Shown one piece after another: positions 206 to 36,580 of a stretch of DNA of 39,303 nucleotides. Within the stretch, counting starts at the first letter, position 1. Each line of letters opens with the position of its first letter. This DNA comes from Bacteroidales bacterium (GTDB lineage: Bacteria; Bacteroidota; Bacteroidia; Bacteroidales; JAIPAP01), in contig JAIPAP010000031.1 in NCBI GenBank assembly GCA_021740045.1, positions 1 through 39,303 on the forward strand, in the 5' to 3' direction. Under the pieces are notes generated by a model that worked only from the letters and a program-made list of their open reading frames with translations, searched no databases and had not been told where the DNA came from. The translations under genes and the position numbers were made by a program.

Positions 206-250
206 AAATGTATGTTTGAATATGCCGGTTAATAGTGAATGAAAGATTGG

Positions 251-362
251 ATGATTGGATGTTTGGATGATTGGATGATTGGATGATTGAATGAATGGAT
301 GAATGGATGAATGGATGAATGGATGAATGGATGAATGGATGAATGGATGAATGGATGATTGG
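251..362. repeat. octanucleotide tandem array, ATGATTGG/ATGAATGG
   Basis: Fourteen back-to-back 8-bp units with no spacing. The first six are ATGATTGG variants, the next eight (291-354) are identical ATGAATGG, and the last returns to ATGATTGG. On the minus strand the array leaves an open frame of HPFIHSS-type repeats, which is an artefact and not a gene. The array lies between the convergent 3' ends of arfB and nqrF. Confidence 0.9.
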
Positions 363-380
363 CAAACCACACTAATCTAC

Positions 381-463
381 CAATTAACAAATTAACAAAT
401 TAACCCTGCCTCCGGCAGGCAGGCAATTAACGAATTAACCAATTAACCAATTCACCAATTACC
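381..463. repeat. second octanucleotide array (CAATTAAC) split by a palindrome
   Basis: Three 8-bp units (381-404), then a 19-bp near-palindrome CCTGCCTCCGGCAGGCAGG (405-423), then five more units (424-463) decaying to CAATTCAC and CAATTACC. The palindrome falls exactly between two units. The unit is unrelated to the array at 251-362 although both have period 8. The remaining bases up to nqrF (464-536) show no gene or clear terminator. Confidence 0.85.
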
Positions 464-536
464 AACTGCTTCAATTCATTTAAGCATTAACCAATTTTTA
501 CTCAAGCTTTGTGAGAAAGTCTCCGCGTTTTCTGCA

Positions 537-3916: not shown

Positions 3917-5062
3917 TTAGGCTTTAGCTTTTTCTAATCGTGCCAACCGGCGTTTGATATTTCCTTCAACCACATAATGATCGATGAGTGGGGCAAATAC
4001 GTTCATTAGCAGTATGGCCAGCATCATCCCCTCGGGATAGGCGGGATTGAACACCCTGAACAAGATGGCCAACAAGCCCACCAGGAATCCATAAATATAC
4101 TTTCCGCGGTGGGTTTGCGATGCCGTTACCGGATCGGTAGCCATATATACTGCGCCAAAGGCAAACCCGCCCATGGCTATCTGCATATGCGGTTGTATCA
4201 TCATGTATTCATTTGCGCCCCACAAATTAAAAATGAGCGACATAACCAACCCGCCCACAAAAACACTTAGCAATATACGGGCGCTTCCAATCCCTGTTGC
4301 TAACAGGATAATAGCTCCTATAAGCACCAGGAAGGTGGAGGTTTCACCGATAGAGCCCGGAATAAATCCGAAAAAGGTATCGCTGAAACTCGGTAAGGCA
4401 TCGGTATTACCCAGCGCTGCGTTTGCCAGCGGGGTCGCACCGGAGAAGGTATCCGGTTTATCGGCGATCCATACCTTGTCACCTGAGATATCCTGTGGGT
4501 AGGCGAAAAACAAGAAGGCCCGTGCCGTTAAGGCTGGGTTAAGGATGTTCATGCCGGTTCCACCGAAGACTTCCTTCCCGATGATAACCGCAAATGCCGT
4601 AGCTACAGCTACCATCCATAGCGGGATATCGGGTGGCAAGATCAACGGGATCAGCATTCCCGAAACAAGAAAACCTTCGTTAACCTCATGACCACGTGAC
4701 TGGGCAAAACCAAATTCGATGGCCAAACCGGTTACGTATGATACGATCACTATTGGTAAGACTTTTATAGCTCCGTAGCCCACCATTTGCCAAAAACCAA
4801 CATCTTCACCAATAGCAAGAAAATGTTGGTAACCCACATTCCAGATACCAAATAATAAGGTAGGTATCAGGGCAATGACCACCATGATCATAGTGCGCTT
4901 CATATCCATGGCATCCCTTATATGACTTCCCTGACTGGTGGTGGTATTCGGAACAAACAAAAAAGTTTCAAAGGCTTCGAAGGTAGAGTGTAGTTTCTCA
5001 AACTTCCCGCCTTTTTCAAACTGAGGCTTAATCTTATCGAGATAATTTCTCAGTGCTTTCAT
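3917..5062 (-). CDS. nqrB: Na+-NQR subunit B, membrane FMN/riboflavin subunit
   Basis: A 381-aa membrane protein with a hydrophilic N-terminal stretch of about 55 residues and then about ten helices. The motif TFSGATPLANA carries the threonine for covalent FMN (ApbE-type SGAT motif). NqrB forms much of the Na+ path and the quinone site and is homologous to RnfD. Within nqrABCDEF it is the second gene, 39 bp after nqrA. Confidence 0.97.
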   Translation of the reverse strand: MKALRNYLDKIKPQFEKGGKFEKLHSTFEAFETFLFVPNTTTSQGSHIRDAMDMKRTMIMVVIALIPTLLFGIWNVGYQHFLAIGEDVGFWQMVGYGAIKVLPIVIVSYVTGLAIEFGFAQSRGHEVNEGFLVSGMLIPLILPPDIPLWMVAVATAFAVIIGKEVFGGTGMNILNPALTARAFLFFAYPQDISGDKVWIADKPDTFSGATPLANAALGNTDALPSFSDTFFGFIPGSIGETSTFLVLIGAIILLATGIGSARILLSVFVGGLVMSLIFNLWGANEYMMIQPHMQIAMGGFAFGAVYMATDPVTASQTHRGKYIYGFLVGLLAILFRVFNPAYPEGMMLAILLMNVFAPLIDHYVVEGNIKRRLARLEKAKA

Positions 5063-18620: not shown

Positions 18621-19433
18621 TTACTTTGTTGCACTTACTGTGATACTATAGATACCTTTATCGGCATGCTTATAAGCCAATAATTCAGTTTCATTCATAT
18701 AATTTAGCAGTATCTCATCGGGAATAACGATCTCCTTTTCCTTATGAATGGTCACATTAGTAAACCCGGCCTTTTCGACTATGTGGAGGTATTTCTCCTT
18801 TTGCAATGCTCCTGAAACACAGCCTGCATACATTTCGGCGTCTTTTTGCAGCGATTCAGGCAATTCACCGATCAGCACCACATCCGAAATACAAAAATGT
18901 CCCTCGTTCTTTAGTACACGGTAAATTTCTTTAAAGGCCCTTTCTTTGGATGGGACCAAATTCAGCACACAATTGCTGACAATCACATCCATCATTTCAT
19001 TCTTAAAGGGCATATCTTCTATATCACCCTGAACAAATTCCATATTCTTATAGCCCATCTTTTGCTTGTTGGCATTGGCTTTTTGCAACATTTCCTCCGA
19101 AAAATCGATCCCATAAACAAAGCCTGTATCGCCTACGATGGAACGTGCCACAAAACAATCATTTCCTGCACCTGAACCAAGGTCGAGCACTACATCACCT
19201 GGCTTGATATTGGCAAAATCGGTGGGTATGCCGCAACCAAGGCCAAGATCAGCTTCTTCGGTATAACCTTCAACCTGGGAGTAATCATCATTGAACATGG
19301 AGTAATCCTCTTCGCAACAGGCTGAAGGTCCACTGCCACAGCAGGAGGATTCATTTTCGGATTTGGACTTTTTAGCGATCTGATCGTATTTCGACCTGAC
19401 CATGTCTTTTATGTCTTTTTGCCTGGTTTTCAT
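18621..19433 (-). CDS. arsM: arsenite S-adenosylmethionine methyltransferase
   Basis: ArsM methylates As(III) to mono-, di- and trimethyl species using SAM. The 270-aa product has the SAM fold (VVLDLGSGAGNDCF) and the family's catalytic cysteines at C67 (GLGCGIP), C155 (SNCVLNL) and C205 (YAGCVSG). Extra cysteine pairs (C31-C32, C39-C40) lie near the N-terminus. DADLGLGCG-like sequence, here EADLGLGCGIP, is the ArsM signature. Its ATG overlaps the arsC stop (ATGA), so the two are translationally coupled. It is the last gene of the ars locus; the 216 bp to the RRM gene hold that gene's promoter. Confidence 0.95.
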   Translation of the reverse strand: MKTRQKDIKDMVRSKYDQIAKKSKSENESSCCGSGPSACCEEDYSMFNDDYSQVEGYTEEADLGLGCGIPTDFANIKPGDVVLDLGSGAGNDCFVARSIVGDTGFVYGIDFSEEMLQKANANKQKMGYKNMEFVQGDIEDMPFKNEMMDVIVSNCVLNLVPSKERAFKEIYRVLKNEGHFCISDVVLIGELPESLQKDAEMYAGCVSGALQKEKYLHIVEKAGFTNVTIHKEKEIVIPDEILLNYMNETELLAYKHADKGIYSITVSATK

Positions 19434-19858
19434 TGTTCTCGAGTTTTAATGTTTTGTTCATAAAATTCCTTGAAATCACGTTTTATTTCGTCTCGTACCC
19501 GGCGGAAAATACCCAGGATTTCTTCTTCGGTTCCGGTAGCCTCGGCAGGATCATCAAATCCGATGTGTAGCCGGTGATCGACTTTGCCTGTGAACAAGGG
19601 ACAAGTTTCCTTTGCGCTGTCGCATACCGTGATCACATAATTGAAGGGCTTTTCCAGGAATTGGTCCACTTGTTTGGGAAGGCCGTTACTGATATCGATT
19701 CCAATTTCATTCATTACCTGGATGGCCTTGGGATGAACCTGCCTGCTTGGCATAGTCCCCGCCGAGTGCACTTCCAGGTTCGGATCGAAGGATTTTAAAA
19801 AGCCTTCAGCCATCTGGCTGCGGCAACTGTTACCGGTACACAAGATGAGTATTTTCAT
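19430..19858 (-). CDS. arsC: arsenate reductase, thioredoxin-coupled LMW-phosphatase type
   Basis: A 142-aa enzyme of the low-molecular-weight tyrosine-phosphatase fold that reduces As(V) to As(III). The nucleophile loop is C7-TGNSC-R13, and the shuttle pair is C79 and C86 (TVCDSAKETCP), spaced by seven as in the thioredoxin-linked Staphylococcus enzyme, so this is not the glutaredoxin type. The product feeds ArsM (overlapping gene) or Acr3 (further upstream). Upstream it is separated from arsR1 by a 1.2 kb repeat/IVP cassette, and no clear promoter is visible in the 54 bp before the repeats. Confidence 0.95.
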   Translation of the reverse strand: MKILILCTGNSCRSQMAEGFLKSFDPNLEVHSAGTMPSRQVHPKAIQVMNEIGIDISNGLPKQVDQFLEKPFNYVITVCDSAKETCPLFTGKVDHRLHIGFDDPAEATGTEEEILGIFRRVRDEIKRDFKEFYEQNIKTREQ

Positions 19859-19912
19859 GTTCGTGATGTCTGTTTCTTTTTTTAATATCTCAAATTATTT
19901 CATTCTCTTTTA

Positions 19913-20284
19913 AGATTGAAGGAGATTGATTTTTGATGCTGCTCAATCTCCTTGCTGCCCTCTGGCTTTCTGCTTCTTAGCAACCTTTTGGTAAAAGATT
20001 GAAGGAGATTGATTTCTGGTGTTGCTCAAACTCCTTGCTGTTCTCTGGCTTTCTGCTTCTTAGCAACCTTTAGGTACCAGATTGAAGGAGATTGATTTCT
20101 GGTGTTGCTCAAACTCCTTGCTGTTCTCTGGCTTTCTGCTTCTTAGCAACCTTTTGGTAACAGATTGAAGGAGATTGATTTTTGATGCTGCTCAATCTCC
20201 TTGCTGTTCTCTGGCTTTCTGCTTCTTAATAACCTTTTGGTAAAAGATTGAAGGAGATTGATTTTTGATGCTGCTCAATCTCCT
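19913..20284. repeat. 83-bp tandem repeat, 4.5 units
   Basis: Units begin with AGATTGAAGGAGATTGA at 19913, 19996, 20079, 20162 and 20245, an exact 83-bp period; the fifth is cut after about 40 bp. Each unit contains an inverted repeat AAGGAGATTGA/TCAATCTCCTT (11-bp arms, 13-nt loop). Units 2 and 3 carry one shared substitution in the right arm (TCAAACTCC) and loop changes, so the array grew by duplicating variants. There are no spacers, so it is not a CRISPR. Confidence 0.92.
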
Positions 20285-20387
20285 TTCAATCTTCAATCAA
20301 TCTTTCTTCAATCTCCCTTCAATCTTCAATCAATCTTTCTTCAATCTCCCTTCAATCTTCAATCAATCTCCCTTCAATCTCCCTTCA
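20285..20387. repeat. 33-bp tandem repeat ending at the IVP stop codon
   Basis: Units start with TTCAATCTTCAATCAATC at 20285, 20318 and 20351 (33-bp period), built from CAATC words. The array ends at the base before the IVP stop codon (20388-20390). Its first copy extends the right arm of the last 83-bp unit, giving a hairpin at 20245-20292 with 17-18 bp arms and one bulged base. Confidence 0.88.
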
Positions 20388-20756
20388 CTACATAGAGTTT
20401 CTTTTTCGCATGGATGAAAGAATTTTTAATAATTCAAGGCTTTCCTTGTGTAATTCCTTAATAAAATCATCTTTAATCATACCTGAACTTATTGTTAATT
20501 CAATCCAGCCTTCAGTTTCATCAGCCTCTTCCACTGCTATAGAAAGTTTACTAAAAAAATCGGCTTTAGACCTACTTCTCAATGCTGAGCGATAATTGAT
20601 ATACATAGAAGAACCTGACTTAGTGAGTTGGTAGTTGATCACCTTTCCTCTTGAAGATTTTGGCAACTTCTCAGAAAGTTCCAGAATTCTCAAAGTAAAA
20701 CGGCGCAACCTCTCCCTAACCTCCTCTTTATAGTTTATCCAGCTTTCATTGTTCAT
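20388..20756 (-). CDS. four-helix-bundle protein (23S rRNA intervening-sequence/Avd-like family)
   Basis: A 122-aa protein from the ATG at 20756 (a longer reading from a TTG at 20804 adds 16 unlikely residues). It is all alpha-helical, with four amphipathic helices: ERLRRFTLRILELSEKLP, KVINYQLTKSGSSMYINYRSA, DFFSKLSIAVEEADETEGWIELTI and FIKELHKESLELLKILSSMRKR. The YRSALRSRSKADFFSKLSIAVEEADETEGWIEL block is the signature of the IVP/S23 family (Pfam 23S_rRNA_IVP). Homologues sit in 23S rRNA intervening sequences or pair with reverse transcriptases in retroelements; here there is neither. It is a free-standing gene flanked on both sides by short-period repeats inside an ars operon. Confidence 0.9.
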   Translation of the reverse strand: MNNESWINYKEEVRERLRRFTLRILELSEKLPKSSRGKVINYQLTKSGSSMYINYRSALRSRSKADFFSKLSIAVEEADETEGWIELTISSGMIKDDFIKELHKESLELLKILSSMRKRNSM

Positions 20757-20876
20757 GTTTATTTTGTTAATTCTTAAAATATTTTTGTCACTGTGCTTTT
20801 CCAAAAATATTTAAAAGATACATACTTTTTGCATACCCCTATTCAAGTCTCCTTCTATATCTTTATCATCCTGTTT

Positions 20877-21084
20877 AAGTCTTTCTTCAATCTTCCTTCA
20901 ATCTCCTTTCGATCTTCCTTTTCAATCTTCATCAATCTTTCTTCAATCTTCAATCAATCTTCCTTTTCAATCTTCATCAATCTCTCTTCAATCTCCCTTT
21001 TCAATCTTCATCAATCTCTCTTCAATCTCTCTTCAATCTCTCTTCAATCTCTCTTCAATCTCTCTTCAATCTCTCTTCAATCTC
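20877..21084. repeat. degenerate CAATCTTC array passing into an 11-bp tandem repeat
   Basis: From about 20877 the sequence is built of TCTTCAATC and TTCATCAATC words. From about 21012 it settles to a regular 11-bp unit TCTCTTCAATC repeated about seven times, ending 3 bp or less before the arsR1 stop (21085-21087). The words match the 33-bp array on the other side of the IVP gene. The bases 20757-20876 hold no further gene. Confidence 0.88.
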
Positions 21085-21417
21085 CTAACAAACGTCGCCA
21101 ACCTCCGTATCTAAAGAATTCAGGAATGCTTCTGACATCTCCTTCAACTCCCGTATTTTCTCAGGGTTAAGGCAGTAATTGGTTTTCACGCCCTGAACCA
21201 CACCTTTGATCAGTCCGGCTTTCTTCAATTCAGCAAGATGCTGGTTGACAGTGGTACGGCTTAGGGGCAATTCTTCTGAAATATCGCCCGTTACACATAC
21301 TTTTATATCGGAGAGATACTTCAAAATGGCCATCCGGGCGGGATGACCCAGCGACTTGTAAAGATTGGAAGTTTCCTGCAAGTGCTTTTCAAAAAGTTTT
21401 CCTTTTGATTGTACCAT
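21085..21417 (-). CDS. arsR: ArsR-family repressor 1
   Basis: A 110-aa winged-helix metalloregulator. I take the ATG at 21417 (MVQSKGKLFEKHLQ); an ATG 45 bp upstream lies within the operator. The recognition helix is LPLSRTTVNQHLAELKKAGLIKG. Cysteines near the DNA-binding helix (KVCVTGD) and at the C-terminus (GDVC) could bind As(III). The promoter region has two palindromic operators overlapping the -7 and -33 positions, indicating autorepression. It is probably the first gene of the original arsR-arsC-arsM operon, now interrupted by the IVP cassette. Confidence 0.9.
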   Translation of the reverse strand: MVQSKGKLFEKHLQETSNLYKSLGHPARMAILKYLSDIKVCVTGDISEELPLSRTTVNQHLAELKKAGLIKGVVQGVKTNYCLNPEKIRELKEMSEAFLNSLDTEVGDVC

Positions 21418-21434
21418 ATTCCTTGTAATTATAT

Positions 21435-21481
21435 TGACGCAAATATACATCAAATATTTCATCTGACGTATAATTACGTCA
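21435..21481 (-). promoter_or_regulatory. arsR1 promoter with two ArsR-type operators, 29 bp apart
   Basis: Operator 1 is TGACGCA-AATA-TACATCA (21435-21452) and operator 2 is TGACGTA-TAAT-TACGTCA (21464-21481, perfect arms). On the minus strand the -7 word TATATTTG (21447-21440) lies inside operator 1, and operator 2 covers the -33 zone. The same pair with the same 29-bp offset recurs before acr3. Confidence 0.8.
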
Positions 21482-21549
21482 TGTTAATTTTTATTAATTT
21501 ACAGTAAGGGCCGTGAGAGTGGATTTATGTATACATGGAGTACGAAAAA

Positions 21550-22761
21550 TCACCTTAGCTCAGCCAGGAAATCACGTATAAACCAATGTTCAATTCCCTG
21601 ATAATCTGTTCCACCGAGGATTTCATCCATTGAAATAACGTATTTCGGATAGTTATCTTTAACTTTCATCAGATTCCCAAATTCCCTTTCTCTTGTATTT
21701 TCGTCAGGAATCAGGTAGGCCACCTGAATATAGATTTTTTTTCCATTTTTTTCAGCCACAAAATCTATTTCTTTGCTCTCCAATTGACCAATAGTCACTT
21801 GATAACCGGACACCACTAAATGCTGATAAATAATATTTTCCAGAATCTTATTAATATCTTCTGTTTTATAACCCTTTATAGCATGACGTAACCCTAAATC
21901 TTCAAAGTAATATTTTTCATTAAACTCAAATATCTTTTTCCCTTTAATATCTGAGCGCAACACTTTAAAAATAAAAAAAGCCGAAGTTAAATATGAAAGG
22001 TAATTAGAGACCACTTGAGGAGAAATTTTGATTTGTTGCGATTTTAAGAAATCGGTGATTTTCTTCGCTGAGACTATACTTCCTGTATTGTCTGCCAGAT
22101 AATACACCAGGTTTTCTAACAAAGACACATGGCGTATCTGATATCTTTTTACCACGTCTTTGAAAAGTATAGCTGAGTAGATATTTTTCAGGTAGTCGTA
22201 AACTACTTGATTTTCCAATTCAAGATTGATTAAATAAGGTAATCCTCCGTATTTCAGGAATTTGATGAATGAACTACTGCTATCATCCAAATGATGAAAA
22301 TGGAGGAATTCAGGATATATCAAGCTATACAGTTTAATCTCCACATACCTTCCGCTTAAATAGGTGGCCAGGTCTCCCGATAAAAGTTGCGCATTGCTCC
22401 CAGTGCAGAAAATATTATAGTTCTTTTTCGACTGAAGACTTCGCAAAGCCTTCTCAAAATTTTCAATATCCTGTACTTCATCAATAAACAGATAGGTTAA
22501 TTCCTTATTGCTTTTGTGCTTTTCAATATAATCAATTAAACTTTCATCATCCTTAATTTCCTTGTATTCATGCCATTCTTTGTTGATGTAGATGATGTCA
22601 GGATTAGTGTGTTTATTTTTAATCTCATCTATTATCTGATAGAGCATGTAGCTTTTACCCACTCGCCTTTGTCCGGAAATTACTTTAATAATGTCTTTTT
22701 CCAGGTATTTTCTTATTTTATTGAGATATATTGGGCGACTAACGTATTTTGGTATATCCAT
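21550..22761 (-). CDS. AAA ATPase with DUF4143
   Basis: A 403-aa protein of the AAA_14/DUF4143 group. Walker A is SGQRRVGKSY (about residues 29-38) and Walker B is LTYLFIDEVQDIE (about 88-100). The C-terminal DUF4143 part contains the family's RHAIKGYKTEDINKILENIIYQHL and KEIDFVAEKNGKKIYIQVAYL, a nuclease-like fold segment. Members are common, patchily distributed accessory genes of uncertain role. Codon use and flanks are AT-rich compared with the ars genes, and the gene sits between acr3 and arsR1, so it looks like a later insertion (inference). Confidence 0.88.
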   Translation of the reverse strand: MDIPKYVSRPIYLNKIRKYLEKDIIKVISGQRRVGKSYMLYQIIDEIKNKHTNPDIIYINKEWHEYKEIKDDESLIDYIEKHKSNKELTYLFIDEVQDIENFEKALRSLQSKKNYNIFCTGSNAQLLSGDLATYLSGRYVEIKLYSLIYPEFLHFHHLDDSSSSFIKFLKYGGLPYLINLELENQVVYDYLKNIYSAILFKDVVKRYQIRHVSLLENLVYYLADNTGSIVSAKKITDFLKSQQIKISPQVVSNYLSYLTSAFFIFKVLRSDIKGKKIFEFNEKYYFEDLGLRHAIKGYKTEDINKILENIIYQHLVVSGYQVTIGQLESKEIDFVAEKNGKKIYIQVAYLIPDENTREREFGNLMKVKDNYPKYVISMDEILGGTDYQGIEHWFIRDFLAELR

Positions 22762-35541: not shown

Positions 35542-35578
35542 TTCTATTTTCTAACTTCTACTTTCTATCTTCTATTCT
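35542..35578. repeat. short TTCTATCTTCTA low-complexity run touching the argF stop
   Basis: Degenerate 7-bp words (TTCTAAC, TTCTACT, TTCTATC, TTCTATT) run without a break into the argF stop codon, whose complement CTA (35579-35581) continues the pattern. Confidence 0.55.
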
Positions 35579-36580
35579 CTAGCTCCCCAGCGTCGCCACC
35601 ATCACAGCCTTTATGGTATGCAGGCGGTTTTCGGCTTCGTCAAATACCAATGAAGCTTCCGATTCAAACACATCATCAGTAACTTCCATAGCCTCGAGGC
35701 CGAACTTCCGGTAGATCTGTTCACCGATTTCTGTATCGCGGTTGTGGAATGATGGCAGGCAATGAAGGAATTTTACATTCGGGTTGCCGGTTTTTTCCAT
35801 CAGTTCCTTGTTCACCTGGAAGGGTTGCATGGTGTTAATGCGCTCTTCCCATACTTCATCAGGTTCACCCATCGATACCCATACATCGGTATAAATAAAA
35901 TCCACATCCTTAACGGCTTCCTCGGGGTTTTCGGTAAGAGTGATCTTAGCTCCGGTTTCTTTGGCTATCTCGCGGCATTGCTTTACCAATTCTTCATTGG
36001 GATGAGAAGCTTTGGGAGCGCCGGCACGGAAATCCATACCTAACTTGGCAGCGCCTACCATAAGCGAGTTACCCATGTTGTTACGGGCATCGCCCAGGTA
36101 GCAGAATTTGATCTTATGCAATGGCTTATCGGTATTTTCCTTCATGGTGAGGAAATCGGCCAGGATTTGAGTAGGATGAAACTCATTGGTCAATCCGTTC
36201 CATACCGGAACACCGGAATATTTGGCCAGTTCTTCCACCTTTTCCTGTCCAAAGCCTCTATATTCAATACCGTCGTACATGCGGCCCAATACGCGGGCTG
36301 TGTCGGCCATGGTTTCTTTTTTTCCCATTTGCGAACCGGTAGGACCGAGGTAAGTAATCTGTGCTCCCTGATCAAAAGAAGCTACCTCAAAAGCACAACG
36401 TGTACGGGTTGACGCTTTTTCGAAGATCAGGGCAATGTTTTTGCCTTTGAGCTTCTGCTGTTCGGTTCCGGCATATTTGGCCTTTTTTAAATCAGCCGAT
36501 AATTCCAGAAAAAAGTTGATCTCTTTTGGAGTAAAATCCAGCAATTTAAGGAAACTCCTGTTGCGAAGATTAAATGCCAT
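35579..36580 (-). CDS. argF: ornithine carbamoyltransferase, likely catabolic (arcB-type)
   Basis: A 333-aa transferase interconverting carbamoyl phosphate + ornithine and citrulline. The carbamoyl-phosphate loop is EKASTRTRC, the FHPTQ loop is [12 protein letters not shown], the ornithine-binding loop is [11 protein letters not shown] and the catalytic HCLP is in [16 protein letters not shown]. It has the FHPTQ and SMG motifs of true OTCases and so is not the succinyl/acetyl-ornithine form used for biosynthesis in many Bacteroidales. Being 34 bp behind carbamate kinase suggests the catabolic direction, splitting citrulline. Confidence 0.93.

Follow-up and report, generated by a model that had tools for sequence, protein, structure and literature searches.

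The window, by which we mean the whole 39,303-nt stretch analysed here (positions 1 to 39,303 of contig JAIPAP010000031.1, or C32, from a Bacteroidales bacterium), carries an arsenic-resistance operon in which a small gene and several blocks of short tandem repeats lie between arsR and arsC (Table 1). The gene encodes a member of the Pfam family 23S_rRNA_IVP (PF05635; IVP hereafter), a family for which we know of no stand-alone role; the closest solved structure by sequence is 2rld (E 1.7e-15). The neighbouring genes were assigned by Pfam and all lie on the minus strand, the name ArsM being a reading from context. The stop codon of arsR abuts the 5′-side array; at the other end, the arsC start follows the block after 53 nt. 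An earlier note on this DNA had placed a cassette of repeats and gene (19913-21084) between arsR and arsC-arsM, with CAATC words on both sides of the gene and no reverse transcriptase at hand. All of this is borne out: TRF recovers the arrays at scores above those of shuffled sequence, the words are present, and RVT_1 is absent from the window contig, the single match of the genome being on contig C125.

Table 1. Features of the arsenic-resistance region and of the repeat arrays in the window.
Feature	Position	Strand	Description
Methyltransferase (ArsM)	18621-19433	-	Pfam
LMWPc/ArsC	19430-19858	-	Pfam
Outer 3′-side array	19912..20285	.	83 bp x 4.5; TRF 636
Inner 3′-side array	20275..20387	.	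33 bp x 3.4 = 11 bp x 10.3; TRF 205
IVP gene	20388..20756	-	122 aa; PF05635 23S_rRNA_IVP, 56.8 bits vs gathering cut-off 33.8
5′-side array, upstream in gene orientation	20880..21084	.	11 bp x 18.4, also 45 x 4.6; TRF 205-242
ArsR-type HTH	21085-21462	-	Pfam
IVP-less arrays of the same style, outside the ars block	236..465	.	TRF; TGAATGGA, then AATTAACA/CAATTAAC

The three arrays of the block were compared with 200 dinucleotide shuffles of each stretch, taking the highest TRF score; the best scores were 636 vs a shuffle maximum of 58 for the outer 3′ array, 205 vs 108 for the inner 3′ array, and 238 vs 166 for the 5′ array. Each 83-bp unit of the outer array has inverted halves of the GATTGAAGGAGATTGA...TCAATCTCCTT type, and the five matches of this unit in the examined genome are the window's own copies, with none elsewhere. 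The inner 3′ array consists of CAATCTCCCTT / CAATCTTCAAT units (self-match 0.78 at lag 11 and 0.96 at lag 33), and the 5′ array of GATTGAAGAGA-type units (0.69 at lag 11). The unit is thus 11 bp with a weaker 7-bp component, and these are not heptamer arrays. The arrays that flank the gene directly share one orientation (direct score 72.5), and an inverted relation is found only between the outer ends of the block; its score of 15.5 lies above the 99% cross-locus level in two of the locus sets described below (15.1 for 35 loci, 14.5 for 150 loci) and below it in the set of 51 IVP loci with controls (16.0). With its 11-bp units, direct inner arrays and amplified 83-bp unit, the window copy is an atypical member of its group. 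A further short array of TTCTATC type lies between convergent genes at 35542-35581, also without an IVP gene.

The block does not fall into the established classes of elements. No transposase was found in it, the IVP being the only open reading frame with a Pfam family (four further plus-strand frames of the block matched none), which sets it apart from classical transposons and insertion sequences. It lies between arsR and arsC and not in a 23S rRNA gene, the location that defines 23S rRNA intervening sequences (IVSs), for which reason we class it with IVS-like elements that lie outside rRNA. The neighbouring reverse transcriptase of the Avd/DGR arrangement is likewise missing from contig C32, and an Rfam scan of the window gave no match at gathering level.

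The three nearest homologues that we found all have repeats, the opposite of the outcome that the earlier note had named as refuting a link between gene and arrays. In one Bacteroidales MAG (L134), the gene occupies the ars site as it does in the window, with arrays of the same kind and similar 80-bp units. In Petrimonas (L135), it lies between a phosphoesterase and polyphosphate kinase (ppk), with GATTGA arrays of period 11, and in Mangrovibacterium (L136) between cas4 and cas1, with GATTGA arrays of period 9, the first GATTGA containing the cas4 stop codon. The same IVP subfamily is thus found at ars, phosphoesterase-ppk and cas4-cas1 junctions, each time with GATTGA arrays. Comparison with L134 gave an omega of 0.098 (dS 0.45) for the IVP, which indicates purifying selection on the protein. 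This value and the ars placement common to window and L134 are what could be expected if the gene acted locally in arsenic resistance, as a regulator or an accessory, and had repeats incidentally, a reading that the presence of IVP homologues beside unrelated genes makes extremely improbable. Across 18621-22761, the window and L134 are 97% identical in AAA/DUF4143, 87% in ArsR and 90% in the IVP (dS 0.16-0.57), and 69% in ArsC and 75% in ArsM, with silent differences near 0.8. The drop in identity suggests a recombination joint at the arrays that separate the IVP gene from arsC.

The flanks of IVP genes were surveyed with a facing-arm test, in which the upstream flank is aligned to the reverse complement of the same locus's downstream flank and the null is formed by pairings between different loci (20,000 for the set of 150), which keeps composition and repetitiveness. 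Among 150 distinct IVP loci with usable flanks, drawn from ranked hit lists and all from Bacteroidota except for two MAG contigs, one each of Planctomycetota and Acidobacteriota, 73 exceeded the 99% cross-locus level (1.5 expected) and 31 the 99.9% level (0.15 expected). The remaining 77 have no significant arms at the 99% level, so that clear facing arms, as judged by this test, are a trait of roughly half of IVP loci. The counts by locus set were 26/51, 8/11, 17/29, 14/29 and 8/30, the last and lowest being the set with the best Pfam scores, and among representatives below 50% protein identity 29 of 50 passed. In the genomes of the order, 24 of 51 IVP loci exceeded the 99% level vs 1 of 25 ParE and 0 of 29 ArsR-type control loci (1/54 controls together), and arrays stood on both sides of 20/51 IVP, 1/25 ParE and 1/29 ArsR-type genes. 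Direct similarity between flanks is not specific to IVP genes in this comparison (9/51 IVP, 5/25 ParE and 2/29 ArsR-type loci over the same level); it exceeds the 99% level at 19 of the 150 loci. The loci used and fetched were 35/36 in the 35-locus set and 51/53 IVP, 25/30 ParE and 29/30 ArsR-type in the control survey; the large set used 150 of 153, with L025, L124 and L210 dropped, and L145 was omitted as a second copy of L006.

The survey of stand-alone IVP genes that the earlier note had proposed thus returns a strong enrichment of short-period, mostly inverted arrays over control genes. The window's own genome has eight PF05635 matches in 3.9 Mb, five of which pass the facing-arm test (L002, L005 and L008 fail), and the word on one side of the gene is the reverse complement of that on the other, with a different word at each locus. 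Elsewhere, at L035 (G027:C67), two IVP genes stand in tandem about 0.5 kb apart from start to start; the two have the same Pfam score, and their flanks are so alike (direct score 127.5) that the pair is probably a recent local duplication.

The arms share a common anatomy. Their unit is mostly 7-8 bp: of 93 IVP loci, 23 have self-match tracts at lag 7 and 10 have them at lag 8; every other lag from 5 to 12 is found in at most 2 of the 93, and no lag in any of 60 controls. The word is specific to the locus, with a G-rich arm 5′ and a C-rich arm 3′ of the gene. In gene direction, G exceeds C in the 5′ arm at 68 of the 73 armed loci, C exceeds G at 4 and one is a tie (28:1 among the representatives below 50% identity), and the mean composition of this arm is A.31, C.09, G.25 and T.35. 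Within the 150 nt next to the gene, armed loci have 2549 G and 1489 C upstream and 1687 G and 2314 C downstream, and loci without called arms show a milder excess upstream (7072 G, 5496 C) and almost none downstream (6380 G, 6073 C). Coding-strand skew does not account for the G-rich 5′ arm, since the arm downstream of the gene, read on that strand too, is rich in C. According to mechanically called open reading frames, the median distance from the upstream coding sequence to the start of the 5′ arm is 4 nt (66 arms with a codirectional one), and this distance is within 15 nt in 47 of 72 cases. In 35 of 68 cases, the 3′ arm reaches to within 15 nt of the following coding sequence. The IVP gene runs with both neighbours at 122 of 146 loci and against both at 2. 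Judging from this statistical pattern of placement and direction, the unit is presumably transcribed with the host operon and does little harm there.

Stop codons were considered as a reason for the repeated units and set aside. The 5′ arms contain 284 stops vs 244.7±9.9 in mononucleotide and 265.7±7.9 in dinucleotide shuffles, all three frames are stopped in 38 of 73 arms (17.7 expected) and ten arms have no stop (3.6 expected), an effect too weak to rest on. At L160, a tRNA-Gln(TTG) gene lies among the repeat arms directly upstream of the IVP gene (1378-1450).

Complementary ends, present at 73 of the 150 loci, together with an IVP open reading frame in the sense of the host transcript, are traits of 23S rRNA IVSs as described in the consulted part of PMC4990558. 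They raise the possibility that the arms pair in the operon transcript and that RNase III excises the IVP message, as in the rRNA IVSs; the large share of genes that run with both neighbours fits such an arrangement as well. A stem selected as RNA should be recognizable in its mismatches, and here G.U-type mismatches between arms show no excess over A.C-type ones (157 vs 165, p 0.70), so that selection for an RNA stem was rejected. The window arrays also fold no better than shuffles (z 0.07, -1.19, -0.39 and 0.54). The hairpin-forming array transcripts suggested in the earlier note find no support in this folding result, and excision from mRNA is a poor candidate. The units differ from rRNA IVSs further in that they lie between protein genes and end in arrays of many units with a locus-specific word.

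That gene and repeats form one unit, the central proposal of the earlier note, gains support from the relatives, the survey and a direct comparison of insertion sites; its general form is a pair of facing inverted arrays, of which the window is an atypical case, and its hairpin transcripts are the part that found no support. Two Saprospiraceae MAG contigs (L138 and L139) carry IVPs that are 89% identical at non-homologous sites. Over compared stretches of 6.3 and 4.7 kb that are otherwise unrelated, DNA similarity is confined to repeats plus gene (about 2847-3606 in L138 and 2886-3476 in L139), and one alignment of 452 bp spans the 5′ arm into the gene. L138 and L141 give a similar picture. 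Gene and arms thus appear to move together, with joint presence at non-homologous sites for one pair and support from others. Among armed loci, arm similarity exceeds the 99% level in 36% of the 28 pairs with IVP identity above 60% and in 1-8% of pairs below it (1826 pairs), the first figure overstating movement as some of the 28 pairs occupy the same site (L146/L147, window/L134). Arm words are, accordingly, common to loci mainly when their IVPs are more than about 60% identical. In L139, the word of the IVP unit recurs in a further short array at 4502-4528, roughly 1 kb downstream of the unit, as if arrays spread locally.

A junction between a Mur ligase gene and ftsW was compared in 30 loci of genus g40, which we take to be Flavobacterium. 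Three of these carry an IVP unit (L175-L177, gap 477-491 bp; the unit of L175 fills the gap, in the same place as in L172), 11 have a hairpin without a gene, 12 have no significant hairpin, and four gaps are too short for the hairpin test. Arm-like hairpins therefore also exist without the gene. At most two of 100 shuffles were as good as these gene-less hairpins, which often have another word (e.g. GTTTCAA, GTTTAAG or GGTTTTG). No clean pair of filled and empty sites was found among the 30 loci. The hairpin of L186 was considered as a deletion derivative of an IVP unit and rejected, as it aligns no better than with a shuffled loop.

Hairpins with other words at this junction are among the observations that favour a different account, in which the arrays are independent intergenic repeats, pairs of which simply offer IVP genes a place to land or persist, as at a hot spot or by hitch-hiking. 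Gene-less arrays also outnumber the genes (in the window's own genome, 374 kb with the window included contain 29 noncoding arrays, and the 3.9 Mb as a whole 8 IVPs), and arrays sometimes flank other sequence: at L281 and L291 facing arrays enclose seemingly ordinary host genes, and at L288 no clear gene. Two contigs of the own genome (L043 and L054) end inside short-period arrays, and for this reason arrays are probably under-counted in draft genomes.

The distribution across genomes argues against this account. PF05635 was found in 298 of 395 sampled genomes of the phylum (matches at E 0.001 or better, 279 of the 395 being over the Pfam cut-off, with at most 11 candidates scored per genome), in 22 of the 31 genomes that represent the order with one genome per family, and in 41 of 41 genomes of genus g40. 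A period-7 GATT pattern, counted with arrays at IVP genes themselves included, occurs in 121 of the 298 IVP-positive vs 9 of the 97 IVP-zero genomes (Fisher p 1.2e-9). Its frequency scales with IVP number, from 9% at zero to 68% at 7-9 and 64% at 10 or more, and the relation holds in permutations within families (p=0.0002).

Samples of 20 kb, with 1.5 kb masked on either side of each IVP gene, weakly support the association in the same direction; they are not random, since contig ends are the starting point of many and hit tables were the source of many of the contigs, for IVP-positive genomes in part the IVP tables. TRF arrays number 1.5 per 100 kb in the nine IVP-zero and 7.1 in the 22 IVP-positive genomes of the order (rank test p 0.054), and their density correlates with IVP number (Spearman 0.48, p 0.006). 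Under a strict test, calls at lag 7 or lag 8, where one array may count at both lags, number 32 in 1.11 Mb vs 0 in 0.47 Mb, with a patchy distribution (9 of the 22 IVP-positive genomes have any; per-genome rank test p 0.047 at each lag), and seven further IVP-positive genomes of genus g40 gave one call in 0.26 Mb. A looser tract test placed 1 of 71 tracts in IVP-zero genomes, and an inverted-gap measure was alike in both groups (2.7 vs 3.0 per 100 gaps). The rarity of arrays in IVP-zero samples, the scaling of the period-7 pattern with IVP number, and the fact that related IVPs bring the same word to unrelated sites make independent repeats an unlikely explanation, if one that retains some weight.

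The Pfam family also resembles the DGR accessory protein Avd, a four-helix-bundle relative (PMC10053308, as far as consulted), which leaves room for a retroelement that is not autonomous and in which the Avd-like protein would rely on a reverse transcriptase already resident in the genome. Unlike in DGRs, the window contig has no RVT_1 match, and 9 of the 22 IVP-positive genomes of the order have none either, these being drafts and one 88% complete. A resident RVT_1 reverse transcriptase thus seems not to be required, and a retroelement of this kind is very improbable.

IVP units occur outside chromosomes and outside Bacteroidota as well. One IVP query matched 31 of 72,556 plasmid records, mostly cyanobacterial, and 0 of 50,697 phage records, so that carriage by phages is unsupported. 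In 18 of the 31 plasmid loci (16 cyanobacterial, one Gemmatirosa and one Riemerella), facing arms exceed the 95% cross-locus level in 11 and the 99% level in 8; for the cyanobacterial loci alone, the counts are 9 and 6 of 16. The 5′ words on plasmids are again G-rich (e.g. GGGAGTA, AGGTGAC, GGGTGTA and AAAAGGG), and the sites include cas6-IVP-cas4, cas10-IVP-cmr3 and, in Riemerella, a position before sufB. The Planctomycetota (L137) and Acidobacteriota (L144) MAG contigs also pass the facing-arm test. Units within CRISPR-Cas operons are found in L136 (2397-4413), L345, L349 and L350, at cas4-cas1, cas6-cas4 and cas10-cmr3 junctions. In a CRISPR survey, a legend on novel associations of adaptation modules names 23S rRNA IVP (PMC10910872, the consulted part). 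Insertion into cas operons may explain this reported association of IVP genes with CRISPR.

REP/RAYT and MITE elements have short inverted ends and occur in gene-carrying and gene-less forms; the units described here differ from them in that no transposase was found and that their ends are short-period arrays instead of fixed palindromes. Several described heptamer repeats come closer. The GACAGAT heptamer stands two or three times in tandem before the IVP start codon of the Coxiella 23S rRNA IVS, and the IVP homologue of X. campestris is reported to form a homopentameric ring of four-helix bundles (both from the part of PMC4990558 at hand). In Xanthomonas and Nostoc, GGGAATC and GGGGATT heptamers, respectively, are abundant and mostly intergenic; those of Xanthomonas lie on average 28 nt from the upstream open reading frame and form 70 and 75 convergent pairs in two genomes (PMC4692102, in part), which we read as having the same polarity as the IVP arms. 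The present arrays differ from them in using many words within one genome and in enclosing an IVP gene. TAACTGA direct repeats are described from Beggiatoaceae, Cyanobacteria and five Bacteroidetes, and some Bacteroidetes have long sets of intergenic heptamers (PMC4679880, in part). They resemble the IVP arms in being heptamers that lie, in one genome, mostly just upstream of start codons, and differ in being mostly direct and of one word. The terms S23, four helix and 0516 are absent from the available text of PMC4692102, as are S23, four helix and intervening from that of PMC4679880. In the open-access literature searched, so far as its texts were available, no general link between IVPs and heptamers was found, the only point of contact being the Coxiella heptamers.

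Taken together, these results make it on balance probable that the block in the window is one copy of a widespread transposase-free element, in which an IVP gene lies within its own end arrays and moves with them. Such an element would typically end in facing arrays of 7-8-bp units (11-bp in the window) that share one word, G-rich at the 5′ and C-rich at the 3′ end, and it would sit between two operon genes in the direction of the operon. The null result of the RNA-stem test and the seeming dispensability of a resident RVT_1 make a process at the DNA level the better guess. In the most likely step, the IVP protein would act on the arrays as DNA, in cis and also in trans on gene-less arrays, and host replication or recombination between arrays may do the copying and expansion. 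Gene-less heptad arrays could then be non-autonomous or relic ends of the IVP element.

A broader proposal, which we put forward tentatively and regard as more doubtful than not, is that IVP proteins are trans-acting makers or maintainers of heptanucleotide arrays, in an element of several phyla without transposase, recombinase or reverse transcriptase, with the Nostoc and Xanthomonas heptamers as its gene-less ends. Heptamer arrays have long been known but not explained, and the link to IVP genes suggests an origin for them and gives arrays and protein each a testable function. If true, the proposal would add a mobile element that gets by without any known DNA-moving enzyme.
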